Part shown: piece by piece, positions 16,201 through 32,531 of the stretch | Layout of the letters: each line of letters starts with the position of its first letter | Position numbering within the stretch: the first letter of the stretch is position 1 | From: a bacterium | Lineage (GTDB): Bacteria > Auribacterota > UBA3054 > JAPLST01 | Direction of reading: 5' to 3' | DNA: 58,411 bases | NCBI GenBank assembly: GCA_026417575.1 | Contig: JAOACZ010000199.1 | Coordinates: forward strand, 1 to 58,411 | The notes under the pieces: generated by a model | What the model was told of the DNA's origin: nothing | The model's database searches: none | What the model saw: the letters and a program-made list of their open reading frames with translations, nothing else | Position numbers and translations under genes: made by a program

Positions 16201-16236
16201 GTAGTGGCACTGGTAACACTCACCAGAGGTTCAGCT

Positions 16237-17832
16237 ATGCGTCGTTTCAGTACCTTCCTCTCGCTCACTGCCCTCGTTCTCGCTGCTCCTCTTCTCGCCG
16301 CTCCTCCCTATGCCCCCGGTTTGAACGGCGACTGGAACTTCACTTCTGCTAACGTTCTCTATCCTCAAACAGGCCTCTACGGCCCTGGTACTACTTTCTG
16401 GGCCCGCGCGTTCAGCAACATCCCCCTCGATCGTGAGTTCAAAATCACCCGCGACGCCAACTGGAACGACAACTGGGGCGGCGGTTATTGGATTTACGAC
16501 AACGCAGTCTACACTCCTCCCAAAGGTGGTAACAACATGGTTTACAAGCAGGGTACCACCGCGCCCATTTTATTCCTAAGTGTTAACAACCCCGAAGCCA
16601 ACCCTAACAACTTGCCTCTCCATGTGCAGCGCTTTTCCTCCAGCCCGGTGAGCATAACCTGGACGGCTGATAGCCTGGGAAGCTCGTATAGTGGCAACCG
16701 TCGCTACACTGCCGGCTCAAACTATGTCGTCATCTGTAGCGTTGGCGCCTCCCGCCCGTCAGAGCAAAAAATTTATTTCCGTTATACCTTTGACGCCTGG
16801 ACCAACTCGACTATTAAAGAACTCACCGGTGCAGCCAATCAAACGATGTTTACGAACACTATCGTCTTGTCGTATGGCCAAATCTTGGATTACTATCTCC
16901 TCACTTCCGCTCGCACGGCGGCAGATCTAGCCACGGATACTGACCTGAAGACCGTCACGTACGACACGCGCAACGGGTACAACTATATCGTCACTGGCTG
17001 GCTGGATTCAGCTCACGCCGCTTTCATTCCCGGGCAGTACACTGCTCCTGACCTTTGGTGGGGGTTTGGCATTTTCAACCGCTTTACGCCCACCCTCCTC
17101 TACGGTGGCCACTCGAACTACTGGGCTTGCACTATTTTCAACGTTACCAACAATCATGAGTTTAAACTTACCTTCGGGCCGGGATGGACGACGAACTGGG
17201 GCGCAAACAGCACCACCGTCAAGCTCTCCGTTGCGCCCAACGCCACAAACACTGGCTACCGTCTCGCTGGCTCAGCGAACATGGAGTTTAACAATGCCTG
17301 GGGGAACGGAGCTGTGGCCCATTTCCAGTGCTATATCCCACAGGACGGCAACAATCAGTTAGCGTTTGGTGTGCAGAAGTTCACTGCCGCACCAACACAA
17401 ATTTCCTCCGTCGCAGACGATCTTACGTCACCTCTGCGCCAGCGCCAGGCCGGTGTTGCCACCCTGGTCACCGCGCAGGTAACGCGCACCACTCTCCTCG
17501 CAGAAGAGAAGCTGTATCTGCGTTACTCTTCCAACAACTGGGCCAATCACTTCCTCGTCCCAATGACAAAAGTGGCTGATTACGTCTACGTCGCCACGTT
17601 GCCACCAATGGGCGGCTCGGAAGCGAATGTCATCACCACTGAATATTACGTGCTCAGCAGCACCCTCACGGAGGCAGAGTTGGCTGTAGGCAACAACCAG
17701 TACGTTGATCTGCTCACGGCAGCGCACAAACTGGGGCCCAACAACAAGAACTTTGTAATTTATAACGTGCCCGAACCCGCGGCGTGGCTCATCGGACTGC
17801 TCGCCGCTTTTCGCCTGGGCAAGAGAAAGTAG
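16237..17832 (+). CDS. Secreted PEP-CTERM protein of unknown function
   Basis: Signal peptide MRRFSTFLSLTALVLAAPLLAAP; C-terminus VPEPAAWLIGLLAAFRLGKRK; start refined from 16204 to 16237. Confidence 0.85.
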   Translation: MRRFSTFLSLTALVLAAPLLAAPPYAPGLNGDWNFTSANVLYPQTGLYGPGTTFWARAFSNIPLDREFKITRDANWNDNWGGGYWIYDNAVYTPPKGGNNMVYKQGTTAPILFLSVNNPEANPNNLPLHVQRFSSSPVSITWTADSLGSSYSGNRRYTAGSNYVVICSVGASRPSEQKIYFRYTFDAWTNSTIKELTGAANQTMFTNTIVLSYGQILDYYLLTSARTAADLATDTDLKTVTYDTRNGYNYIVTGWLDSAHAAFIPGQYTAPDLWWGFGIFNRFTPTLLYGGHSNYWACTIFNVTNNHEFKLTFGPGWTTNWGANSTTVKLSVAPNATNTGYRLAGSANMEFNNAWGNGAVAHFQCYIPQDGNNQLAFGVQKFTAAPTQISSVADDLTSPLRQRQAGVATLVTAQVTRTTLLAEEKLYLRYSSNNWANHFLVPMTKVADYVYVATLPPMGGSEANVITTEYYVLSSTLTEAELAVGNNQYVDLLTAAHKLGPNNKNFVIYNVPEPAAWLIGLLAAFRLGKRK

Positions 17833-18558: not shown

Positions 18559-19338
18559 TCAGGGTAGTTCATGAATCTGTTTTTTCATTCCCAACAGTGC
18601 GAGGTAAATACCAAACGCTGGGTAATTGCGTCGGAGGGCCTTGAGATTCTCGAGCGGTTCGTACTGCAGGTCTTCCGGTGGAAGCGCGTAGCCAACACAT
18701 TGCGCCACCAAATCGATTCGTTTGGACATCCAGGCTTCCACTACTACCGGCACGCCCACGTCCGCTAGCCAATCCACATTTTCATGACGGCGAATGACCG
18801 GCTGGGTAATGATAAACGCTGCCCCCGCGTCCAGTTTGCGCTTGAGCTTTTCACGCTCATTATGCGCTGGCTCATAATGATTGTAGGCAACCCCACACAC
18901 AAATGTATCCGGATACTCGCGATGAATGTATCTCATTAGTTCTACCGACGTCACTACCGCGGTATTAAAGCCAAGTTCGTCGGGCGTCAGGCGATGCAGA
19001 CGTTCGTTGCCATCCCCACTCACCGTCAAAAGATACCGCACACCTTTCTCTGCCATCGTGCGCAGCATGCGATCAAGGTCTTGTTTCCGATGAAAAGTAT
19101 TCAAATGAATAATGAGGCGTTCCGGGTTGATAGTAACGCCGCTTGCCTCGATTGTCTCGAGCGCCTCGAAACTAAGCATCCCAAGCGGGTTGTCCGTTAT
19201 GCAGATCACAAAGTCGCGCTGCTGTGAAAGCGTATATTTCTCCGCGAACTTGACCAGATCGGCCTCAATATCGGGACTATCTTGTTTAGGTGTAGTGACC
19301 TCGTTCAGGTAGCGCTCAGGGGCAAACCAAGGGATCAT
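18559..19338 (-). CDS. Methylenetetrahydrofolate reductase-like TIM-barrel protein
   Basis: 259 aa; KLDAGAAFIITQPVI, YLLTVSGD, VCGVAYNHYEPAHNEREKLKRKLDAGA MetF-like pattern. Confidence 0.6.
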   Translation of the reverse strand: MIPWFAPERYLNEVTTPKQDSPDIEADLVKFAEKYTLSQQRDFVICITDNPLGMLSFEALETIEASGVTINPERLIIHLNTFHRKQDLDRMLRTMAEKGVRYLLTVSGDGNERLHRLTPDELGFNTAVVTSVELMRYIHREYPDTFVCGVAYNHYEPAHNEREKLKRKLDAGAAFIITQPVIRRHENVDWLADVGVPVVVEAWMSKRIDLVAQCVGYALPPEDLQYEPLENLKALRRNYPAFGIYLALLGMKKQIHELP

Positions 19339-19667: not shown

Positions 19668-19696
19668 TTGTCTTTTGTGTTGCGAAGCGGTATAAT
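19668..19696 (+). promoter_or_regulatory. Candidate promoter TTGTCT-N17-TATAAT at the head of the GspK/LTD/EEP operon
   Basis: Perfect TATAAT at 19691-19696; weak -35. Confidence 0.45.
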
Positions 19697-19713: not shown

Positions 19714-22700
19714 ATGGATACAAGCCACGTCATGGCTAATCCCGCATCAGTTTTAGCGCCACCGCGATCTGTGCGTCTGAGCACCGACCGCGGTGTCGCG
19801 CTCGTCGCAGTGTTATCAGTACTGACGGTGCTGGCAGTGCTGGCGATGACCTTCGCGGTATACACAAGCATCGAACAAGCTACCGCGCGCACCGCGGCTT
19901 CTTCCCATGACGTGCGTGCGCTGGTTGACGCGGGACTCGCCCACGCCAAGGCCCTCTTGTGGATTGACGCCGTGCTTGGCGATCCGCGCTACGATGCCTA
20001 CAGTGACCTCTGGCGCACAACATTCGACGGTACGTTAGCCAACCGCCCGCCGGACGTGAATCTGAGCGGGCTCAACCGCCCCGGCCTGCGCGGCGCGGGC
20101 GGTGACGCCATCTGGCTCCCTGTTCGGAACGAACGAGGTACTCTCGTGGGCCGCTACGCCGTTTTGGTCGAGGATGAAAGCGCCAAAATAAATCTCAACA
20201 TGGCTTCTTTATTACCACCCCAGCGCGCAAATGAAGGCCTTTCACCCTACGAGATTTTGCTCGGTGACGGGGGAGTCCGTGGTTTACCGCTGCCCACGCC
20301 CGCGCTCGCCAACGTGATGCGTTTTCGCTACGGGCCCAACGGTGTTCCAGGCGCGCGTGGCGACGATAACGTCAACAATGCGACCCTCATGTCCGATGGT
20401 CTAGATAACAATGCGAATGGACTGATTGACGAGCTGGATGAGGGTGTGGACGAATTAGAAGAGTATAACGCTGCCAGACCCTATGGCGATGACCGCGCTT
20501 TTTTCTCGCTCCGGGAAGTATGGAGCGTCGCCGCACCTAATGCGCCTCTTTCCCATGCACACGTGGCCGCCCTGCGTGCCTCTGCTACGTTGCATTCAAC
20601 TGACAATAGTCTGCGTTGGGATCCAAGCACACGTAGCTGGCGCCCGCGGGACAACCTTAATGTCATTTCAGCGCGCGATATTCATCGCACTCTTGCTCAC
20701 GCCAACCAGCAGTTCAGCTTTGAAGGCAACCAGCGCCAGATGCGTCGGCTAGCTGCCACGGCTGCTGATTATCGTGATGAAAATGCGGTTCTCTCCACCG
20801 TCGCAAGTGAATACGGCATCGAAGCGGTGTGTTTCAACGAAGTGCTTGCCAATGAGGGCAGTCGATTGATGCTCCCCTACCGCATCAACGAGGTCTATGG
20901 TGACCGACGAGTGTTTACTCTCGCGTACTTTTACAGCTTCTACAATTATCGCAATACCTCCCCTGTCACCAGCGACAATCCCGCGTTGCGTGAAAAGTTC
21001 GATCGCACAACCGCGTTCGGGATTGATTTTTCATCCGTGCGTTACACCCCCAGTGGCATTTCTCTCGAACTTGGCCGCAGCCCCCTCGAAAGCGGCGGCT
21101 ACCGCAACTGGTTTGAACAGTTCAAACAGCTCCTCCGCGCACGCGGCCGCAAGTTTATCGAGCAAGACCGCGTCATCTGGCCAGAAAATCTTTGGAAAAA
21201 CAGTTACCTGTGCGTCTATCGCTCGCCCACGCCAGGAGCTCTGCCTGCCAAAGTCTTCAAAATCGAGCGGTCCACGGACCGCATCCTTTACATCAACGCC
21301 ACACAACTTGCTGCCGACGATTACATCAACTTCACGTCACGCTACTACTACGCTCAAATTCGCTCATGGATCCACGATCGGGCCTACTACGCCGAGCATC
21401 CCCAGGTATCCACCTGGACCGTCGTACCTTTCCTCCAACCCAACACTTACTACCGTGTCTACATCCAAGAGACTAACTTGCAGGTCCCAGATGATGATGC
21501 AGCCTACAGTCAGCACCTCTCTGAAAAGATGGATGTGGACGGCAGGCTGGGTCAGTATTCGGAACAAAACATCCATCGCTTGCGCTACCGCTACAAGGAT
21601 GGCGAAGCCATCCGCGCCGACCGCCAAGGATGCATAGACCTGTATCTGACAAGCTCGCGTGAGTGCAGTCCCCGCCGTCGCAACCGTTTTAATGCCGCCT
21701 ACTGCGTGCGCCCGGACATTATTGAATTGATGAACATCAGCGATCGCCCAGTCAGCTTGCGTGGGTGGTCCCTCGTCGCGAACACCGGCGCACTGGCGTA
21801 CGAGCTCGGCACAATTGACCACGCGGTCCAGTATTCGCGCCAAGACACCGGGCGAAAAGTTGAGCTCAATCCCACAATTCAACCCAACGAATACTTCTAC
21901 CTGTGCAACAACCTCGATATTTTTGACCGCGATTTCGGCGGCACACGCGATGGACTGTGGGGCACCAGCGCCGACGAACAGATGCCAGCCTATGAGATTA
22001 ATGATGATCGCTGGGGCGTGCGCTTCAAAATCAAATCACTCCGCGAAGTTTCCGCTGCGGACGGTTGGACCACGTATGTTACGTGTGAAAACGAAAACTG
22101 GCGCAAAGATCAGTTTAAAGACGAGATCGCCGAATTCCAGTCTGCTCGGCGCGACCCACGCGGCGTGGCGCGATCACCTGATGGTATCCGCTATAGCATT
22201 GACGAGAACACGCGTAACACCCTGGTCTTTAAAAACCTCAAGTTGCAAGAGTATAGCTTCGTCGAACCGGGCGACTTTGTCATGATTGTCGGCTTACCGC
22301 GCATTGGTGGCTTTGTCAGCTTGACCCTCAAAAACCAATACGAGCAAATCGCTGCCCGGGTCATCGAATACGGTAACCCGAGCTCCGACCTGCAGCGCGA
22401 CCCACGGCGCTGGCTCGGCTGGTCGGCAGAGAAGCCTGACCCCACGCGCGAAGAATGGGTCTTATGCCGCACACCTACCTTCGGGGGCACTGTTCGCCGC
22501 GCCCGTAATGCAACCGCGCTCCTGCGCGACGAAGCCATCGTCAGTGTCAAAAACGGCCAATATGCTTCACCTGGCGAACTCGCCCGCGTGCGCCGCATCG
22601 CCACCTGGCAACAAGAACGCCGTGACGCGCGCGACATTGCTGCCTCTAAATTGGTCCAAGCCGCTGTCGAATTCTTTGACACGCGCGGCATCCGCCTCGA

Positions 22701-23757
22701 CGCTGAGGAAGAAGGTGCGCACCTCAAAGGCTGGCGCCCCGCCTTCGGTGAAAATACTATTGCCGATACACGCGGCATCACTGATTATCGCGCTGTCTGG
22801 CCGGTTAACGTGTGGTCTAATCAGCTAATCCATATGCTCAGCGGTTCACGGCGTGGCGAGACTTTCGCTATCCAGGGTAACAGCCAGAATCGCCTTCGCG
22901 TCGTCGGCCGCTCGGTCCCCAGTCGCCAAACCTTCTACGCCGCAGCAGGTGATCGTTACTCGCTCGGCCCAGGCTACGCCTCATCTTTCTACTACACGCG
23001 CAGCGAAACCGATTCCGGCGAGTGGGAATGGAAAAATAAACGAATTCCTAAGGCTACCTACCGCTTGTTCATCTGCGGCTTGAACGATTCAATCCGTACT
23101 ACAGAGTTCTTGGAAGAGAATTACAATCCCCGCCTGGATATTCGCGTCTACGACTTTGAAAAAGGTGCATACGATCTGATCGCGCGCGGACGCCAGTACG
23201 ATAAGAACGACACAATTGACGTAGGTGTGATCGGACCGCGCCATATCTCTCCAAGTGGCGGATTGCGGTTGCGCCTTGATGCGAGCGGGCTTAAGCACCA
23301 GTATTGCCACGGATTCGCGTGGTTCGATTACCTTTACCTCGCGCCCGTTCCAGTCCAGGGATTGGTGAACGTGAATACCGCCTCGCCACGTATCCTCATG
23401 GCGCTCAATGGTGTAGATGCTACCCTCGCGGAAGCTATTTACAAAGGATTGAACAGTGCCGGTCAGGCTGTCCTTAAGCCGTACCGCTCGGTCGGCGACC
23501 TCCTGGCGGTCCGCGGGATGACTATTGATCGCTTGACTGGGTTGGCGAATCTCGTCACTGTGCGCAGCGACCAGTACTGCGTAAACGTCGTGGCACAACT
23601 TATTTCCGACAAGAATCGCGACGGAACCTTCGATGAACGCGCAGGCGACCGCATCGAGGCCACCGCGCATGTGCGCGCCATCCTCGACCGCAGCCCACTC
23701 CAGTCACCTGATGTGCATGAACACACTATCAAAGAACTATCTGTAACCCGAGAATAG
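19714..23757 (+). CDS. Giant GspK-like (type II secretion minor pseudopilin) protein with an internal lamin-tail-like domain
   Basis: Prepilin-like N-terminus STDRG|VALVAVLSVLTVLAVLAMTFAVY; GspK-like C-terminal region GLVNVNTASPRILMALNGVDATLAEAIYKGL...VGDLLAVRGMT; LTD-like IIELMNISDRPVSLRGWSLV; D/N-rich GLDNNANGLIDELDEG. Confidence 0.75.
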   Translation: MDTSHVMANPASVLAPPRSVRLSTDRGVALVAVLSVLTVLAVLAMTFAVYTSIEQATARTAASSHDVRALVDAGLAHAKALLWIDAVLGDPRYDAYSDLWRTTFDGTLANRPPDVNLSGLNRPGLRGAGGDAIWLPVRNERGTLVGRYAVLVEDESAKINLNMASLLPPQRANEGLSPYEILLGDGGVRGLPLPTPALANVMRFRYGPNGVPGARGDDNVNNATLMSDGLDNNANGLIDELDEGVDELEEYNAARPYGDDRAFFSLREVWSVAAPNAPLSHAHVAALRASATLHSTDNSLRWDPSTRSWRPRDNLNVISARDIHRTLAHANQQFSFEGNQRQMRRLAATAADYRDENAVLSTVASEYGIEAVCFNEVLANEGSRLMLPYRINEVYGDRRVFTLAYFYSFYNYRNTSPVTSDNPALREKFDRTTAFGIDFSSVRYTPSGISLELGRSPLESGGYRNWFEQFKQLLRARGRKFIEQDRVIWPENLWKNSYLCVYRSPTPGALPAKVFKIERSTDRILYINATQLAADDYINFTSRYYYAQIRSWIHDRAYYAEHPQVSTWTVVPFLQPNTYYRVYIQETNLQVPDDDAAYSQHLSEKMDVDGRLGQYSEQNIHRLRYRYKDGEAIRADRQGCIDLYLTSSRECSPRRRNRFNAAYCVRPDIIELMNISDRPVSLRGWSLVANTGALAYELGTIDHAVQYSRQDTGRKVELNPTIQPNEYFYLCNNLDIFDRDFGGTRDGLWGTSADEQMPAYEINDDRWGVRFKIKSLREVSAADGWTTYVTCENENWRKDQFKDEIAEFQSARRDPRGVARSPDGIRYSIDENTRNTLVFKNLKLQEYSFVEPGDFVMIVGLPRIGGFVSLTLKNQYEQIAARVIEYGNPSSDLQRDPRRWLGWSAEKPDPTREEWVLCRTPTFGGTVRRARNATALLRDEAIVSVKNGQYASPGELARVRRIATWQQERRDARDIAASKLVQAAVEFFDTRGIRLDAEEEGAHLKGWRPAFGENTIADTRGITDYRAVWPVNVWSNQLIHMLSGSRRGETFAIQGNSQNRLRVVGRSVPSRQTFYAAAGDRYSLGPGYASSFYYTRSETDSGEWEWKNKRIPKATYRLFICGLNDSIRTTEFLEENYNPRLDIRVYDFEKGAYDLIARGRQYDKNDTIDVGVIGPRHISPSGGLRLRLDASGLKHQYCHGFAWFDYLYLAPVPVQGLVNVNTASPRILMALNGVDATLAEAIYKGLNSAGQAVLKPYRSVGDLLAVRGMTIDRLTGLANLVTVRSDQYCVNVVAQLISDKNRDGTFDERAGDRIEATAHVRAILDRSPLQSPDVHEHTIKELSVTRE

Positions 23758-23764
23758 GAGTCGT

Positions 23765-25984
23765 ATGAAACAACCCAGTTTGATTTGTTTTGTGATTCTT
23801 GCCGTGAGCGCGATCATGCCAGCCCACGCACTCACCGTCGTCGAGGCGCGTGCATTGCCACCAAATACGCTGGTGGAAGTTGGCCCTGTCACAGTTACCA
23901 CCACGAATGACCTGACCGCCAGTGGCTACGCATTCACTGCCCAAGACGACACGGGAGGTATTCAGTTTTACTGGTCAAGTGCACAGCTCCCTCAAGCGAG
24001 CTCTTTCATTCAAAATAATGGCATCGTGCCCGGGAGCAGTATCACTGTGCGTGGGTCTAACGCTTGGTTCTCTGGCCTGTACCAATTGGTGAACCTGGCC
24101 TTCGTCACCAATCATGGCTTTGCAGGCGTGCCAGCTCCCACGCCGATCGCCTGGGCGAATTTGCAGCGCATCCCGCATTACACAAATTTTCTCAATTTGT
24201 ACATCATCGTCAGTAACGCCCGTTTTCGGACGTCCGGTACGTTCCAAAATGCTGTCAATTACACGATCACCAACCTAGCCGAAAACCTTGGTGCCTTCGT
24301 CCGCATTCAAGATGCCGCCGACCCCTTGGTGGGAACTCCTATTCCAAATGGCAACGTAACGATTGTTGGTATCTATGCGCACCACGCCTCGGTCGGCCCT
24401 CAGATTTTTCCTCTGCAAATTATCCCAGATATCGTCCCGGATAATCCCAATATTAATCTGGTGACCAACTTTGGCTTTGGCATTGTGCACCCCGGCCAGA
24501 CACGCACACTGAGCTTCCGTATCCAGAACAACGCCGCGCCGTCGAATCTAACCGTCTCATCTTTCGCGCCTGTCAGCGGGCAGACCAATCACTTCGTGCT
24601 TGACCTGCCACCGCTGCCGCTAGTCCTTCTACCCATGAGTAGTGCCTACATCAATGTGACCTACCTTGGCGGCGCTGCCAGCAACGTGCATCAGGCACTC
24701 TACCAGATCCTGTGCAATGATCCCTCGGATCCGACAAATCACATCACTTTCTGGGGTGGCGTCGCCTCCAACACACACTTGGCAGTGTGGATCAACGAGG
24801 TAGACTACGACACTCCTGGCTCAGCGGTAAACGAATTAAACGAGTTTGTTGAACTGTGTGGGCCAGCAGGATTGAACCTGAACGGTTGGAAGCTGGAATT
24901 CTGGTATTCCCCCGCGCCTGGCACGTTCTCCAACTACGCCACACACGTAATCGGCAGCACGAGCACGAACACTGTTTTGCCCAATGACACGAATGGGTTC
25001 GGGTACTATGTTCTAGCCTCATACGACACCCAACCAGATTTCCCTAACATCGATGAATTCGCTAACTTCAGCGAATTCCGCAACGACACCCCGAACGCCA
25101 TCCGCCTGGTCAATCCCGCCGGGGAGCCGGTGCATTTCTTGGAGTGTGAAACCTATTATGCCAATGCTTACCCGTGCGGTTGGCCAGACGACGTCACCTC
25201 GTGGCGCGATTCCAACGACCCTGAGAAATCCCTGTCCTTGATCTGCACCGGATTCGATCGCACTGCGCTCGTGTGGGGCGTGATCGGCTTCACCCCCGGC
25301 ACTCCGAACATTCCGACAACTAATCTGCCTCCCCCAGGCGTCGCTGCCCAGCTACGTGAAGACACCTACGTCCAGCTCTATCTTTCTAATCGCTACCAAG
25401 GAGGCATTGCCTACTTGAATGTAGAAGCCGATTCCTATGGCCAATACGCCGCACGAATATGGCTGAAATTTAATACCAGCAATGTGGTGGCCCATTATAA
25501 CAGCCAGTTTGGCCCGGGCCTGTGGGACGTTGACAGTGCCACGTTACGGCTTTCGGAGTACACCATTTCATGGTCACAAGCCGGGTTGATGAAAGTCTAT
25601 TATCAGCCGAATAATTCGTGGTGGGAAGGACCGACCTCGCCGCCAGCAGGTGACGTGACTGGTAGCGAATTGTGCTGGAATAACGAGCATCTCTACACCA
25701 ACGACGCCGTGCTCGTGGGAACGTACAAAAGCAAGGGAGGAAACTCCGAGAATCGGTGCAGCTTGAACGTGTCCGTACCGCCACTTGCGACGGCGTGCTA
25801 TCATGGAGCGGTAATCTCGTTCCGCATTTATGCGGAAGATGGAGCTGCTACCTATCGGTCCCAAAACTACACCAACGATGTGACCGCCCTGCCAATGTTG
25901 TTTATTTATGCCGTGCCGGAGCCTTTGGCCGGCGTCATCCTTCTTATGCTGGGCGCGCTTGCGCGCTGGCGCCACAAATTATGA
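23765..25984 (+). CDS. Secreted OB-fold-like / lamin-tail / DNRLRE-like protein with PEP-CTERM
   Basis: Signal peptide; OB-like TLVEVGPVTVTTTNDLTASGYAFTAQDDTGGIQFYW; LTD-like ELNEFVELCGPAGLNLNGWKLEFW; EDTYVQLYLSNRYQGGIAYLNVEADSYGQYAARIWLKFN; C-terminus VPEPLAGVILLMLGALARWRHKL. Confidence 0.75.
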   Translation: MKQPSLICFVILAVSAIMPAHALTVVEARALPPNTLVEVGPVTVTTTNDLTASGYAFTAQDDTGGIQFYWSSAQLPQASSFIQNNGIVPGSSITVRGSNAWFSGLYQLVNLAFVTNHGFAGVPAPTPIAWANLQRIPHYTNFLNLYIIVSNARFRTSGTFQNAVNYTITNLAENLGAFVRIQDAADPLVGTPIPNGNVTIVGIYAHHASVGPQIFPLQIIPDIVPDNPNINLVTNFGFGIVHPGQTRTLSFRIQNNAAPSNLTVSSFAPVSGQTNHFVLDLPPLPLVLLPMSSAYINVTYLGGAASNVHQALYQILCNDPSDPTNHITFWGGVASNTHLAVWINEVDYDTPGSAVNELNEFVELCGPAGLNLNGWKLEFWYSPAPGTFSNYATHVIGSTSTNTVLPNDTNGFGYYVLASYDTQPDFPNIDEFANFSEFRNDTPNAIRLVNPAGEPVHFLECETYYANAYPCGWPDDVTSWRDSNDPEKSLSLICTGFDRTALVWGVIGFTPGTPNIPTTNLPPPGVAAQLREDTYVQLYLSNRYQGGIAYLNVEADSYGQYAARIWLKFNTSNVVAHYNSQFGPGLWDVDSATLRLSEYTISWSQAGLMKVYYQPNNSWWEGPTSPPAGDVTGSELCWNNEHLYTNDAVLVGTYKSKGGNSENRCSLNVSVPPLATACYHGAVISFRIYAEDGAATYRSQNYTNDVTALPMLFIYAVPEPLAGVILLMLGALARWRHKL

Positions 25985-27576
25985 TGTTTCTTCGCTTCAC
26001 TTGCCCATCGGCGTTGTGCGTGCTCGTGTTCGCCTGTGCCGTTCCCTCTACGCAGGCTGTCACGAACCTTTCCGTGGTAACGTGGAACACGCGCAAGGCT
26101 CTGGCCGATACGGGCTCGTCGGCCTTTCACGCGGCCGGACGTATCCTGCGTTACCTCGCTGCCGACATCTACGCCTTGCAGGAAACTCCCCCTTCAAGTA
26201 GCTCAATTAGCAACCTCGTCCGGTTCCGTGACAGCTACCTAACCAACTACTACGTGGTGCGATCTGGAAACAACGATAACTACAATCGGCAGGCGGTCAT
26301 AAGCCGCTATCCCATCCGCGATTTTCGCGATGCGGTCGTGAATACCTGGACGAACAGCGGTGATGTCGTCACAGATTACACGAATAAATTCACCCGCGAA
26401 CTCTTTTACGCGGAGATTGATATTCCGGGTGCGGATCCCGTGCGGGTCTACACGGTTCACCTGAAGGCGACAACCAGTGATACAGAGGATCTCTTGCTCG
26501 CCCACCTGCGCCGCGAAGCGGAAGCTCGCCAAGTCGTCTGGCACCTCGACGGCCGCTGGTCCAACGGGCCTGCACAGCAGATCGTGCTCTGCGGTGATAT
26601 GAATACGGATATCAAGATACCAGCTCACGGTATGGCCGTGCATGTGCTGACCAACTGTGCCGTGGCCCTGCGCCTGACAGAGGCACCCGTGAATCCGCTC
26701 ACGTTGAGTGATGGGACTTATTCTAACGGCATGCTCCGCTTTGATTATCAACTTCCTTCGCCGCGCCTTACCGATGTTGCTCGCAGCGTCTTTCGCACCG
26801 ACGTCGGCACGCCACCACCAGGGCTGAATCCCGCCGATTCGGTCATTGCCAGCGATCATTTGCCGGTGTGGTATCGGTACACTCTTCCCGCGCCTCACGT
26901 GACTGCACGCGAACGAATTATCATCACTGAAGCAAATCTGTGGTGTAATAACAATTCAAACGAGTATATCGAACTTTACAACGCTGGTACCGTGCCATGT
27001 GATCTCCGTGATTGGCTCATCACCGATCTCGATTCCAGCACCGTGATTGCCACGACGACAGCTGTGGTGTATCCTGGGCATTTTGTTCTTATCCAGGTGG
27101 GTTCCCCGGCGGCGTCGGGCACGAGCTCAGCGGGCACAGGTGTCCTGCGCCTTTATGTACCCGCTTTGAGTTTTACTGGCACAGACGATCAGCTTGCTCT
27201 GCTGAACACGAACAATATCTACGTGGATTGCGTACTGTGGAACAACAATGATGCTTCTCTAGCAGCAGGTGAGGTGTCGGATTTTAACACCCTTTGCGAA
27301 TACATGTGGCGCGCCGGTGCTATCACCAACGTGGCGCAGTACAACACTACCACTGTGCGCCAAAGCGGCTCCCAATCCACTTTCGGTCAGTCACTCTATC
27401 GCCTGCCCGCCTATGACGTATATCCGGACAGCGATACAACTAATGACTGGCTAGTTACGTCGGGCACGCAGGGCACCCCGGGAGATCACAACCCTGGCTT
27501 TGTCCCAGAACCAGTGCTCAGCGTGGTCGCCTTTTTGCTTGTTCCTGCTGTGCGTCGCACAGGGATTGCCCGTTGA
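25981..27576 (+). CDS. Secreted endonuclease/exonuclease/phosphatase (EEP) protein with C-terminal lamin-tail domain and PEP-CTERM
   Basis: EEP motifs WNTRK, LQE, VHLKA, GDMNTD, ASDHLP; LTD IIITEANLWCNNNSNEYIELYNAGTVPCDLRDWLITD; FVPEPVLSVVAFLLVPAVRRTGIAR; ATGA overlap with the upstream stop; start refined from 25756. Confidence 0.85.
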   Translation: MMFLRFTCPSALCVLVFACAVPSTQAVTNLSVVTWNTRKALADTGSSAFHAAGRILRYLAADIYALQETPPSSSSISNLVRFRDSYLTNYYVVRSGNNDNYNRQAVISRYPIRDFRDAVVNTWTNSGDVVTDYTNKFTRELFYAEIDIPGADPVRVYTVHLKATTSDTEDLLLAHLRREAEARQVVWHLDGRWSNGPAQQIVLCGDMNTDIKIPAHGMAVHVLTNCAVALRLTEAPVNPLTLSDGTYSNGMLRFDYQLPSPRLTDVARSVFRTDVGTPPPGLNPADSVIASDHLPVWYRYTLPAPHVTARERIIITEANLWCNNNSNEYIELYNAGTVPCDLRDWLITDLDSSTVIATTTAVVYPGHFVLIQVGSPAASGTSSAGTGVLRLYVPALSFTGTDDQLALLNTNNIYVDCVLWNNNDASLAAGEVSDFNTLCEYMWRAGAITNVAQYNTTTVRQSGSQSTFGQSLYRLPAYDVYPDSDTTNDWLVTSGTQGTPGDHNPGFVPEPVLSVVAFLLVPAVRRTGIAR

Positions 27577-28532
27577 AATCCTCTCTTGCTATCTTCCGCT
27601 GCGGATTCTTACTGCTCGCTGTCGTCATAGTCTCACGGGCGGCATGGGCGGCCCCCCTCGCGACGCTGCGCATCGCTACCTACAACGTAGCTAACATGTT
27701 CGATCGCTACGACGACCCGTACACAGAGGATTCCGTTCCAGCGCGCGGCACCTCGCCCAAATCGGCCCGTGCCCTGTATGCACTCGCACGCGTGATTAAA
27801 GCCGTCAATGCCGACGTGCTGTTGCTCCAAGAAGTGGAGAATCGGAACTTTTTGGCCGAATTCAACGCAGCTTACCTCGACGGCTTAAACTACAAGTATG
27901 TTGTTTTGCTCGAAGGAAACAACAGCCACATCGGCGATCGCGGCATTGATGTTGCACTGCTCAGCCGCGTACCAGTATATTCCGCAACAACCTACCAATA
28001 CCAACAGCACCCCTTGCCAAATGGCACCAGTGTGCGTTTCAGTCGCGACCTGCTCCACGTGCGCATCCGCCCAGAAGGATTTCCCGAATTGCATGTGTTC
28101 ACGCTCCATGCGCCTTCCCGATTAGGCGGCGAAGCAGCCGCGGTACGGCGCATCACGGAAGCCACATTGGCTGCGAAGATTTTACGCGAAATCTTCGCCG
28201 ATAACACCAACGCATGGATTCTCGTCGGTGGCGATTTTAACGATGACGAAACGAGCGCCTCGCTGGCTGTTTTTACCAGCATTCCCGGCGTTCCTTTGCG
28301 CCGCGTCCCCGCCGTAGACGCACGCGGTGGAACGGCAACTTGGATCAGCCCCAGTTCTGGCTTTGAGCCTGCGACCTTGGACCACCTGCTGCTCAGCCCG
28401 GCAGCAGCCCGCTACCTCGTGCAAAAACACGCCGTCATTTGGAACGCTGATCCACGCCTGGCGGAAGAGGCGTCCGACCATCGCCCCGTCTATCTCGACC
28501 TGCGTCGTCCCACGCGCGTGCTTGCAAAGTGA
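27573..28532 (+). CDS. Secreted EEP-family nuclease/phosphatase
   Basis: Signal peptide; IATYNVANMFD, LLQEVEN, TLHAPSR, GGDFNDDE, ASDHRPVYLD; TTG start overlaps upstream TGA. Confidence 0.85.
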   Translation: MKSSLAIFRCGFLLLAVVIVSRAAWAAPLATLRIATYNVANMFDRYDDPYTEDSVPARGTSPKSARALYALARVIKAVNADVLLLQEVENRNFLAEFNAAYLDGLNYKYVVLLEGNNSHIGDRGIDVALLSRVPVYSATTYQYQQHPLPNGTSVRFSRDLLHVRIRPEGFPELHVFTLHAPSRLGGEAAAVRRITEATLAAKILREIFADNTNAWILVGGDFNDDETSASLAVFTSIPGVPLRRVPAVDARGGTATWISPSSGFEPATLDHLLLSPAAARYLVQKHAVIWNADPRLAEEASDHRPVYLDLRRPTRVLAK

Positions 28533-28551
28533 TGCCCGTCAACAGTATAAT
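28522..28551 (+). promoter_or_regulatory. Internal promoter TTGCAA-N18-TATAAT
   Basis: Hexamers at 28522-28527 and 28546-28551, upstream of ATG 28585. Confidence 0.45.
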
Positions 28552-28584
28552 AGTGCGCACGTTAATCCTCACGGGATACCAGCC

Positions 28585-30120
28585 ATGAACGACCTCTCAC
28601 AGCCCACTGCACAAGGGACGGTTTGCCCCAGTTGTCATCGGTTCGTCGGTGCGTATGACCGCTGTCCCTTCTGCGGTACGGGTATTCCCAAGCGCATCCC
28701 TTTGCGTGTTGTACGGTCCCTGTCACTACTGGTGGCCATCGCAGGTCTTGTCTGCCTTCATCTGATGGCCATGTATCGCGACGTACCTACCGTCTCAATT
28801 GGCGCAATTTCACCAGCGATGAATTTTGGCTACAAGCGCGTGATTGCCCGTGTCAGCCAGCCATTGCGTTATTACCGAGACGGCGACAAAATCACCGGTT
28901 GTAGTTTTTTACTCGAGGATGACACAGGTGAGCTGCGCGTGCGTGCCTTTCGCCCGGTGGCAGAAGCCTTATACCACCGAGGGTTCACCCTGCGTAAGGG
29001 TGACCGTGTCAGCGTCACCGGGACGCTCCAAGTCTTGGAGGATACGCCACGTATGCTGCTACAATCGCCTGATCAACTAGAGATACTGGAACCCGCGGAG
29101 GTTCTCGATCTGGCATTAAGCGAGCTCGGGGGAACGCCAGAGAGTAGGCCCGTGCGTGTGAAAGCCGCTGTTGAACAAATTGTTCCACCGCGCTCCGAAC
29201 GTGCACCCTATCGCATTGTGTTGCGCGACGGCACTGGCACGGCTAATTTAGTCGTCTGGCCTCCTCAATTTTCCGAGATTCCGGAAGAGCACCGCCCTCT
29301 CCCGGGCAGCATTGTCGAAGTGCGCGCCACAGTCTCCACCTATCGAGGGGCCCCGCAACTCCAGCTCGATGACCCACGCGACTTTGTTCGTTTGGCCCTG
29401 GCTTCCGCTTCGGACGTGTCTGAGGTAGGCACGGCTCCCCCACTGACTCCCCTCGCGGACATTACCAGTGCCGACATCGGTCGGACTCTCCAAATCTCCG
29501 CCACTATCACTGACGTGCGCACGCCGGCGCCCGGTTCGCGTGCGCCATACATGGTCACCCTTCAAGATGGCAGTGCGCGTCACACACTCGTGTTCTGGAA
29601 AGATACCTATGACAAGTTAGCCAACCCCTCTGCATTAGTCCCTGGCAGCCGCGTTAATGCTCAAGTACAAGTGGGCGAGTTCCGCGGGCGCGTGCAATTG
29701 CAACTGCGCGACGCAAGTAAACTCTCACTTACCCCTGAAGTAGGCACACCCCCTGCTGCGCAACCTCCCAATCCAGCACAAGATTCAGCAAGTCGCCCGC
29801 AGCAGGCGTCACCCGCTCCGCCTGCCTCGCTCGACGCCGGTGCGCTCACGACGGCTTCGCTGGGCCAGCGGCTCACGATCCAGGGCCGCGTTGTTAGCTT
29901 CGCTGCCCCTACCTCCCCGCGTTCGCCCTATCGCCTCACGCTCCGTGGCGAAATGGGTGATGCTACGGTCGTCATTTGGGCACCTACGTGGCAGCAAATT
30001 CCTCCCAGCCAGCAACCTACGACCGGCATGCTGTTGCGCGTCTCAGGCGAGGTGGCAGAGTTCAAACAACAAAAAGAGTTGCGTGTCCGCCACGCCGCCG
30101 ACCTCCAGGAGGTCCGTTGA
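28585..30120 (+). CDS. Membrane-anchored zinc-ribbon protein with multiple OB-fold-like domains
   Basis: CPSCHRFVGAYDRCPFCG zinc ribbon, one TM segment, then at least three OB-like repeats (YRIVLRDGTGTANLVVWPPQF, YMVTLQDGSARHTLVFWKDTY, YRLTLRGEMGDATVVIWAPTW); start refined from 28327. Confidence 0.75.
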   Translation: MNDLSQPTAQGTVCPSCHRFVGAYDRCPFCGTGIPKRIPLRVVRSLSLLVAIAGLVCLHLMAMYRDVPTVSIGAISPAMNFGYKRVIARVSQPLRYYRDGDKITGCSFLLEDDTGELRVRAFRPVAEALYHRGFTLRKGDRVSVTGTLQVLEDTPRMLLQSPDQLEILEPAEVLDLALSELGGTPESRPVRVKAAVEQIVPPRSERAPYRIVLRDGTGTANLVVWPPQFSEIPEEHRPLPGSIVEVRATVSTYRGAPQLQLDDPRDFVRLALASASDVSEVGTAPPLTPLADITSADIGRTLQISATITDVRTPAPGSRAPYMVTLQDGSARHTLVFWKDTYDKLANPSALVPGSRVNAQVQVGEFRGRVQLQLRDASKLSLTPEVGTPPAAQPPNPAQDSASRPQQASPAPPASLDAGALTTASLGQRLTIQGRVVSFAAPTSPRSPYRLTLRGEMGDATVVIWAPTWQQIPPSQQPTTGMLLRVSGEVAEFKQQKELRVRHAADLQEVR

Positions 30121-30121
30121 G

Positions 30122-31456
30122 GTGAGCCCGGTCATCCTCAAAGTCGCTCTTTCCGCAATTGCCGGCACACTGGCTTCTACGCTGGTTGGCTGCCTTCCTG
30201 CGCTGCACGTCTACAACGTTGCCATGCTCATGATCGTGTTTCACGAGCATGTCGCTCAGTCAGCCTGGGGGAGTGATCAATTTATCCTGATGCCGTTCTT
30301 GATGGGTTTGATCGTCGGCTGGGCTGTCCTCAACACCGTCCCCGCTGTGTTTCTCGGCGCGCCTGACGAAAGTGCGATGCTGATGGTCTTCCCAACCCAA
30401 AAGTACTTGATGCAGGGGCGTGGATACGAGGCCACAATGTTGTCCGGCCTTGGGGCACTAGGAGGTGCGATGGGCTTGCTGCTCGTGGCTCCGTTGTTGC
30501 CCACCCTTCTCCCCATCGCGCGGAACGTGCTCTCACCACACTTGTTCTGGCTTTTGGCGTTGATCATCGCCTACATGGTCATGTCCGAATTCCCGCGTGG
30601 GGGCGACCGTGGCCCTACGCCCTTGGCACGCTTTTGGGATGCATGGAAGTCCTTGCTGGCCGGCATCCTTACCCTCGTGCTCGCCGGTTGGCTCGGCTTT
30701 CTGCTCATGCGCCGCGCACCCATCGGCGTCACGTTTGAATTTTCCAAAATCATGCCCGCATTTGTCGGCCTCTTCGGCATTCCTTGGGTCTTGCAAAATA
30801 TTGCCTCGGGGACGGAAGTACCGCCGCAATACGTGCCACGCTCTGCAGACGCAACACCTTTTATTGCCTTTCGCGGGATAAGTGCGGGGTTTCTTGGTGG
30901 CTTCTTTGCCGCTTTCTTTCCCATTGTAACGGGCGGCATCGGTGGTCTCCTCGCCGGCCACGCCACTGCTCAGAATGACGAGCGCGCTTTCATAATCTCG
31001 CAAGGCGCCTCAAAATTTGTCTATTACGTAGGTGCTTTCTTGCTGTTCTTTGTGCCTGCCGCGAATTTGGCCCGTGGCGGCCTCGGCCATCTCGTGCGCA
31101 CGATGTACATTCCACGCACAATGGGCGAGTATTTGATGATTCTCGGCGCCATGGCACTCTCTAGCGGGCTGGCCTTTCTCCTTCTGGGAGTAATGGCACG
31201 GCTTATTATTTGGCTGATCCAACGGATCAACTACCGCTACCTCTCGTGGCTGACGCTTTTTATTATGCTTGGCTTAGTCTTCGCTATGACCGGTTGGGGC
31301 GGCCTGTTCATCACAGTGGTCAGTACAGCCATTGGACTTATACCAGTCGTGTTTCATGCGCGGCGAAGTCATTGTATGGGCGTACTCCTCTTACCAGTAA
31401 CGATCGAAATGGCTGGCTACGGCCCACAGCTGGCGCGCTTGATGGGTCTCACGTAA
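30122..31456 (+). CDS. TctA-like (COG1784-type) integral membrane protein
   Basis: Polytopic; LASTLVGCLPALHVYNVAML and GGIGGLLAGHATAQNDERAFIISQGASKFVYYVGAFLLFF TctA-like motifs; GTG start 1 nt after the upstream stop; start refined from 29840. Confidence 0.65.
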   Translation: MSPVILKVALSAIAGTLASTLVGCLPALHVYNVAMLMIVFHEHVAQSAWGSDQFILMPFLMGLIVGWAVLNTVPAVFLGAPDESAMLMVFPTQKYLMQGRGYEATMLSGLGALGGAMGLLLVAPLLPTLLPIARNVLSPHLFWLLALIIAYMVMSEFPRGGDRGPTPLARFWDAWKSLLAGILTLVLAGWLGFLLMRRAPIGVTFEFSKIMPAFVGLFGIPWVLQNIASGTEVPPQYVPRSADATPFIAFRGISAGFLGGFFAAFFPIVTGGIGGLLAGHATAQNDERAFIISQGASKFVYYVGAFLLFFVPAANLARGGLGHLVRTMYIPRTMGEYLMILGAMALSSGLAFLLLGVMARLIIWLIQRINYRYLSWLTLFIMLGLVFAMTGWGGLFITVVSTAIGLIPVVFHARRSHCMGVLLLPVTIEMAGYGPQLARLMGLT

Positions 31457-31457
31457 C

Positions 31458-32531
31458 ATGAAAGGTTTTACGCATTTCATCTCTGCTACTGCCGTTGCTT
31501 CGTGCGTGCCCGGGGCGGCGCAGTACGCTATAGACCATACCTCGTTTATTCTCTTGTGGGGCGGTGTGTTTGGTCTTTTGCCGGATACGCTAGATTTTAA
31601 GTTCAACCGGTTCTTTTATAAGTTTGACACGCTCTACGAGCCGGCGCAAGAGCCTGATCCAGAGGAGATTGCGGCAGTTGTGGCCCGCCACATTGAGCGA
31701 GCGCAGGCAGAAAAGCGTGTGGTCACACTGCACCTCCACACGATCAAGCTCGGCGCAGACCTTTGGCGCCAATATCAGATCGCTTTTGACACCGAGCAAC
31801 AGCAGATACATGTCGAAATTGGCCCGATCGTTAACACGGGCAAAGTGCCCATTCCCGGAAGTGAGCCGCGCGAAAAGCACAGTGCGACGACGCCTGTGGC
31901 ATGCCGTTTCACGCAAAATTATGATACCGTCACCACGGTCTCCATCTTTAGCGGTCCTAGTTTCGCTTTTGTGCCAAAGCCTGAGGGGGTGGATGTGCAG
32001 TTCCTGCCCTGGCATCGCAGCTGGACCCATAGCCTCACCCTAGGTGCTCTGTTTGGCCTGATTGCCTGGGTGATTGCGGCTCTAGCCAGCGGTCACTGGC
32101 TGTACCCAGCGTGGATGTTTGGCACAGTAGTCACCTTGGGTTACTGGACCCACGTAGTCGAAGACCAATTCGGTTTCATGGGCAGCAACCTTCTCTTCCC
32201 CCTGACAAAGGAACGTACGCCCGGGTTTCACACTATGCGAGCTATGGATCCTTTGCCAAACTTTATGACCTGTTGGTTATCCGTCGCCCTCTTATTTTGG
32301 AATCTTTCGCGGACGACTTCGTCATTTCCACAGGTGGAGCTGAGTGGCTGGGCTTACGTGCTGTACGCTGTAATCATCCCCGTGGCACTGATGTTATTTG
32401 GACGCGCGTTAATGCGGCCTGCCGAGCCACAACCAGCGGTCACTGAAGCGCGTGTGCCGATGCCTTCCCCACCCCGCGCGGGCGCCCCGGCACCTCCAGA
32501 GGAAGACGAGGAAGACGAGGAGCCTTCGTAG
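31458..32531 (+). CDS. Membrane-bound metal-dependent hydrolase (YdjM/DUF457-like)
   Basis: MKGFTHFISATAVAS...GLLPDTLDF, HRSWTHSLTLGALFGL, HVVEDQFGFMGSNLLFPL. Confidence 0.7.
   Translation: MKGFTHFISATAVASCVPGAAQYAIDHTSFILLWGGVFGLLPDTLDFKFNRFFYKFDTLYEPAQEPDPEEIAAVVARHIERAQAEKRVVTLHLHTIKLGADLWRQYQIAFDTEQQQIHVEIGPIVNTGKVPIPGSEPREKHSATTPVACRFTQNYDTVTTVSIFSGPSFAFVPKPEGVDVQFLPWHRSWTHSLTLGALFGLIAWVIAALASGHWLYPAWMFGTVVTLGYWTHVVEDQFGFMGSNLLFPLTKERTPGFHTMRAMDPLPNFMTCWLSVALLFWNLSRTTSSFPQVELSGWAYVLYAVIIPVALMLFGRALMRPAEPQPAVTEARVPMPSPPRAGAPAPPEEDEEDEEPS

Follow-up and report, generated by a model that had tools for sequence, protein, structure and literature searches.

The passage of DNA through the archaeal membrane without ComEC is an open question, and one study points to a pair formed by an OB-fold protein and a TctA-like protein. 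In Methanococcus maripaludis, the OB-fold protein MMJJ_13020, which carries one transmembrane helix, and the TctA-like MMJJ_13030 are encoded side by side and each is essential for natural transformation (PMC10133366). A TctA-like homologue of MMJJ_13030 is also needed for natural transformation in Methanoculleus thermophilus, and a predicted thermonuclease was a further hit in the M. maripaludis work (PMC10133366). Since archaea lack ComEC, the TctA-like protein has been proposed as their DNA transporter (PMC10133366). The present analysis concerns a stretch of 58,411 nucleotides from a bacterium of the Auribacterota (contig JAOACZ010000199.1), referred to as the window, which carries a three-gene membrane cassette named ZnOB-TctA-YdjM. 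This cassette, preceded by a gene for a secreted protein of the EEP family, probably corresponds, in bacteria, to the archaeal pair, to judge by analogy.

27573-28532, + strand: putative secreted EEP-family nuclease or phosphatase (PF19580), directly 5' of ZnOB in the window's order
28585-30120, + strand: ZnOB, with a zinc ribbon, one transmembrane helix and four OB folds (PF01336, AlphaFold2, Foldseek, PDB profiles)
30122-31456, + strand: cassette-type TctA-like membrane protein of 444 amino acids (PF01970)
31458-32531, + strand: YdjM-like membrane protein, a putative hydrolase with a beta-rich insert (PF04307, alignment, AlphaFold2)

As in the archaeal pair, an OB-fold protein with one helix has a TctA-like neighbour, and in the archaeon, too, a nuclease matters for transformation. 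The bacterial cassette differs in its zinc ribbon, its multiple OB repeats and its YdjM-like third gene, and its carriers have ComEC.

A three-gene cassette shared by about ten phyla

The true conserved unit of this region is the ZnOB-TctA-YdjM cassette at 28585-32531. Loci were collected by one scan of a genome collection with the ZnOB N-terminus, which yielded 67 named loci, 66 of them with a callable ZnOB, and because ZnOB alone served as bait the neighbouring genes are unbiased by the search. A TctA-like gene lies 3' of ZnOB on the same strand at 54 of the 57 loci where 1.4 kb or more follow, within 200 bp at 52 of these, and TctA is followed by YdjM at 41 of the 50 loci with at least 2.6 kb downstream. 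The order is common to about ten phyla, according to our own grouping by record names. Some relatives titled Chlamydiota or Chlamydiae are assigned to the window's order by the search tool. The cassette is complete at all 11 loci of Kiritimatiellota/Verrucomicrobiota and at all nine Riflebacteria-type loci, and further carriers are found among Muiribacteriota, Elusimicrobiota, Spirochaetes, UBP18 and Auribacterota-type genomes. In Chloroflexota, TctA was found at 13 of 20 ZnOB loci, with six complete cassettes, several loci being cut by contig ends.

At the level of whole genomes, ZnOB was present in 24, cassette-type TctA in 22 and both in 21 of 145 genomes from many families (Fisher p 4e-21, in a test that ignores shared ancestry). 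The YdjM type occurred in 20 of the 145, all of them inside the cassette-TctA set, and classical TctA was found together with ZnOB in none. A plasmid search for the cassette TctA and ZnOB gave no match, and hence no archaeal plasmid comparator, and scans of viral contigs found no relatives.

Variants of the arrangement were also seen. Two Erginobacteria-type loci (L136 5413-6732 and L139 13768-15087) have a second, divergent TctA-like gene after YdjM. In Candidatus Muiribacterium halophilum (L101 9977-11782), ZnOB is split into a 174-residue zinc-ribbon/OB protein and a 413-residue OB protein, which may be real or a frameshift.

Features of the cassette proteins

The N-terminus of ZnOB contains a zinc ribbon (CPSC..CPFC in the window, CPSC..CPxC generally), followed by one hydrophobic helix at about residues 40-64 and, in the window, by OB folds at residues 82-169, 188-269, 300-383 and 428-509. 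PF01336 matches four stretches with 95.5 bits, above the Pfam cut-off, and an AlphaFold2 model based on 30 sequences has four OB folds at a confidence score (pLDDT) of 88.9. As the length of ZnOB differs between phyla, from fewer than 300 residues to about 700, the number of OB repeats probably varies. The OB part is probably periplasmic, because positive residues precede the helix (the positive-inside rule). A PDB profile search with the OB repeats ranked archaeal RPA first, and the top Foldseek matches of the model were the tandem-OB DNA binders HIN-200, RPA, Teb1, telomere end-binding proteins and POT1. By these comparisons, DNA-binding proteins of the RPA type are the closest to the repeats.

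Of the cassette members, the TctA-like protein is conserved best, with 36-68% identity to the window copy across phyla, and it matches PF01970 with 124.8 bits against a cut-off of 28.9. Matches to this family in the 145 genomes fall into two classes, a classical one that scores 400-547 bits when whole and has about 500 amino acids or more, and a cassette type of about 445 amino acids that scores 56-137 bits; by these scores and lengths the two are sharply separate. PF01970 matches are also present in the control archaea M. jannaschii, M. acetivorans and H. volcanii, and the window protein had no match among PDB sequence profiles. A TctA family membrane protein is what the cassette has in common with TctABC transporters. 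Apart from its shorter and low-scoring TctA, the cassette differs from these in having a tethered OB protein in place of the binding protein, and neither TctB nor TctC was seen among the flanking window genes scanned or among the commonest neighbour Pfam families elsewhere.

With regard to the YdjM-like protein, PF04307 is matched with 58.9 bits against a cut-off of 29, and seven putative metal ligands (H6, D43, D46, H186, H191, H232 and D236) are invariant in 30 aligned sequences. Its AlphaFold2 model has a pLDDT of 87.5 and the beta-rich insert is conserved. Foldseek found no significant match to this model in the PDB, and PDB sequence profiles gave chance-level matches only.

Nuclease-like and ComEA-like proteins near the cassette

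The EEP protein at 27573-28532 matches PF19580 with 86.6 bits, above the Pfam cut-off, and had no match among PDB sequence profiles. Its orthologues keep the catalytic motifs. Most genomes of the window's order that have this EEP carry its gene directly 5' of ZnOB, as in G004, G005, G007 and G009, and the two genes adjoin at loci L075-L078. In two metagenome-assembled genomes (MAGs; L150 11828-15497 and L125 6116-9617), genes for a metallo-beta-lactamase+HHH+OB+HHH protein and for a ComEA-like protein with two HHH motifs precede the cassette. The cassette shares with ComEC/ComEA a logic of OB domain, polytopic membrane protein and nuclease, with ComEA-like and metallo-beta-lactamase/HHH proteins beside it in these two genomes, but it has no Competence domain, its membrane protein belongs to the TctA family and ComEC is encoded separately. 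The idea that the cassette simply replaces ComEC was rejected, as the predicted absence of ComEC failed in all 24 carriers.

Other arrangements were recorded in passing. A second, giant ComEC-like protein (DUF4131 + Competence; 1096-1299 amino acids in those scanned) is encoded in several ZnOB-carrying genomes (L142-L148); its gene adjoins a pyrimidine-nucleoside phosphorylase-like gene at L145-L147, and L147 also has a stand-alone metallo-beta-lactamase protein. At the Riflebacteria-type loci L106, L112, L115, L124, L129 and L132, ZnOB is immediately preceded by a homologous gene of the N-acetylmuramoyl-L-alanine amidase type.

A candidate nucleic-acid uptake module

The favoured reading, with a probability of about 0.48, is that 28585-32531 and the secreted EEP protein at 27573-28532 form a nucleic-acid uptake module, for transformation or nutrition. 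It is favoured because the cassette has an OB/TctA pair like that of M. maripaludis, HHH and metallo-beta-lactamase neighbours in two MAGs, and a secreted EEP protein upstream. Established by the present analysis are the arrangement of domains, the conserved gene order, the co-occurrence and folds similar to those of DNA-binding proteins; the cargo, the direction and the identity of the bacterial and archaeal pairs as the same system are what we infer. In such a module, the EEP nuclease would cut extracellular DNA, the RPA-like OB repeats of the membrane-tethered ZnOB would hold the strand in the periplasm and the TctA-like protein would pass it across the inner membrane, where the putative metal hydrolase YdjM might act on the incoming strand or its products. 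A wider claim, namely a second inner-membrane route of DNA import that uses a TctA-like protein and a tethered RPA-like OB protein instead of ComEC, common to archaea and about ten bacterial phyla and existing beside ComEC in bacteria, is rather doubtful. A counterpart in many bacterial phyla, with a fixed third gene and here and there a nuclease or ComEA-like neighbour, would allow the archaeal question to be approached by comparison, name YdjM as a third component and suggest a DNA-uptake route in uncultured bacteria. It is also a warning that many genes with a tricarboxylate-transporter annotation may have products that do not carry tricarboxylates.

Several observations weigh against uptake of nucleic acid. 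The likeness to MMJJ_13020 and MMJJ_13030 is one of family and architecture only, and a crude hydropathy scan, which gives the TctA-like protein nine transmembrane segments, does not confirm the number of eleven published for the archaeal one. In the window the OB part carries no net charge, in Chloroflexota it is acidic, and YdjM is undetected at most Chloroflexota loci. ComEC (PF03772) is present in 24 of 24 ZnOB genomes. Nuclease or ComEA-like neighbours occur in a few lineages only, with unrelated genes elsewhere, such as Amidase_3 in Riflebacteria, and most of the genes scanned beyond the cassette show no nucleic-acid theme, the HHH and metallo-beta-lactamase neighbours being a minority. 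In the relative G001, the EEP gene is away from ZnOB, near an OB/LTD protein and a GspK-like gene. Furthermore, the genomes examined are mostly MAGs without phenotype.

The presence of ComEC in all carriers, which leaves it available for transformation, would suit a purely nutritional role, in which extracellular DNA is broken down by the nucleases, while the cassette takes in the resulting nucleotides or short oligonucleotides for phosphate, nitrogen or carbon and plays no part in transformation. The two secreted EEP enzymes of the window and the giant ComEC-like protein beside pyrimidine-nucleoside phosphorylase in several Auribacterota point the same way. Such scavenging is nevertheless unlikely, as the EEP is tied to the cassette in the window's order only, no nucleotide-salvage genes recur beside the cassette, and transformation itself depends on the archaeal counterpart (PMC10133366). 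Less probable still is a cargo other than nucleic acid, such as an organic anion or envelope precursor moved by the TctA-like protein, with the OB repeats acting as an oligosaccharide or peptide receptor and YdjM as an envelope hydrolase. The lack of a TctB or TctC partner among the neighbours scanned, the sharp distance of the cassette class from classical TctA and the RPA-type nearest relatives of the OB repeats speak against it, even though organic acids are the usual cargo of the TctA family, oligosaccharides are among the ligands of OB folds, Chloroflexota have an acidic OB part and a cell-wall amidase lies upstream in Riflebacteria.

The earlier note on this DNA had suggested that all genes of the run, the four before the cassette included, may work together at the cell surface as an extracellular nuclease system, sorted by PEP-CTERM and perhaps delivered or exposed by a pseudopilus resembling that of a type II secretion system (T2SS). 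This is improbable. The first four genes do have short gaps or overlapping start and stop codons, the run encodes LTD, OB and EEP domains, the window's genome (an assembly of 2.7 Mb in 239 contigs) has genes for exosortase and T2SSF, and the OB/LTD and GspK-like genes adjoin in G002 and lie near the EEP gene in G001. On the other hand, a promoter-like site precedes ZnOB, EEP-LTD and GspK-like genes lie elsewhere in most relatives, and in all the other phyla seen, the last three genes come without recognisable relatives of the first four. A strict single operon was rejected for these synteny breaks, and import of nucleic acid across the inner membrane is likelier than surface display of a nuclease.

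Genes upstream of the cassette

The remaining features of the run are the following.

19668-19696: promoter-like site TTGTCT-17-TATAAT, 5' of the first gene (GspK-like), by consensus match
19714-23757, + strand: giant GspK-like pseudopilin whose insert, about 1000 residues long, includes an LTD-like region (profile searches), member of an expanded paralogue family
23765-25984, + strand: PEP-CTERM-like surface protein with OB/DUF5689-like, Ig-like, LTD-like and DNRLRE/CBM96-like regions (scan of homologues)
25981-27576, + strand: secreted EEP + LTD protein with a PEP-CTERM-like end (PF03372 and PF00932 above cut-off), outside the conserved cassette
28522-28551, + strand: promoter-like site TTGCAA-18-TATAAT between the EEP and ZnOB genes, by consensus only (10/12 matches)

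ExeM/NucH-family extracellular nucleases combine LTD, an OB domain and an EEP nuclease in one chain, and the earlier note had proposed that such a nuclease was spread over one operon headed by the GspK-like gene. The gene calls behind this proposal hold: seven plus-strand genes, YdjM included, occupy 19714-32531, separated in order by a gap of 7 nucleotides, an ATGA overlap, a TTGA overlap and gaps of 52, 1 and 1, and the TATAAT noted in the gap of about 52 nucleotides is part of the site at 28522-28551. This site inside the run argues for two transcription units rather than one, on a consensus match; promoter-like sites in the region are in mild excess only, with 14 observed versus 9.0 +/- 2.8 by chance. 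The domain calls were also borne out, with EEP-LTD, EEP, OB repeats, TctA and YdjM all above Pfam cut-offs. A link to extracellular DNA was retained, but a single ExeM/NucH-type nuclease was not, given that NF033681 scores 30.7 bits with the 27573 product against a cut-off of 300 and does not match the 25981 product. The secreted proteins share EEP, LTD and OB-like domains with ExeM/NucH, here spread over separate proteins. Neighbourhood conservation likewise fails for the whole run, which relatives break into pieces, so the operon reading is only partly supported: the GspK-like, LTD/OB PEP-CTERM and EEP-LTD genes are mostly elsewhere, and ZnOB-TctA-YdjM alone is kept across phyla.

The EEP and LTD matches in 25981-27576 score 51.3 and 40.4 bits, and EEP-LTD proteins are found at other loci in G001, G005 and G009. 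The 23765-25984 protein itself has no Pfam match at E 0.01 or better, and the OB-like and LTD domains ascribed to it were seen through its homologues, where LTD was matched in 4 of 10 (best 2e-35), DUF5689 in four and OB in one, together with Ig-like regions. In L053 it corresponds to two adjacent proteins. A GspK-like gene is followed by an OB/LTD homologue of this protein in G002, but not in G005.

Taken by itself, the LTD-like segment reported for the giant GspK-like protein scores weakly (20.6 bits, with the cut-off at 34.3), and it is backed by the protein's family, in which LTD is matched in 19, HHH_3 in 19 and GspK in 20 of 22 members. NF037980 (T2SS GspK) gives 41.8 bits, below its cut-off of 130, with 20 of 22 members matching at E 0.01 or better, and TIGR02600 (Verru_Chthon cassette protein A) gives 24.4 bits, below its cut-off of 332, with 16 of 22 matching weakly; a literature search on the Verru_Chthon cassette found nothing. 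The family is present in 15 of 15 order genomes searched, at several loci each, and by its profile matches is a separate, expanded GspK-LTD family of the window's order. In Thermus, the GspK-like protein ComZ, which has a large insert, is the DNA receptor at the pilus tip (PMC6561018). The giant protein shares a pilin-like N-terminus, a GspK-like C-terminus and a very large insert with GspK, Verru_Chthon protein A and ComZ, and differs in its LTD-like insert instead of a beta-solenoid, in missing the cut-offs and in its several paralogue loci per genome; ComZ may be regarded as an analogue, by likeness.

Giant GspK-like paralogues of about 1000-1450 amino acids with LTD-like inserts were recorded at L056, L058-L060 and L064-L073 in addition to the window, and a PEP-CTERM-type protein directly follows several of their genes (for example, L069 11647-13776 and L071 7563-9686). 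The G011 copy (contig C7) has GspE-like and T2SSF genes within about 10 kb. Upstream of the run, the window encodes a CBM53 protein with a PEP-CTERM-like end (16204-17832) and, on the minus strand, a short MTHFR-like protein of 259 amino acids (18559-19338), which matches its family profile partially and adjoins a NUDIX gene.
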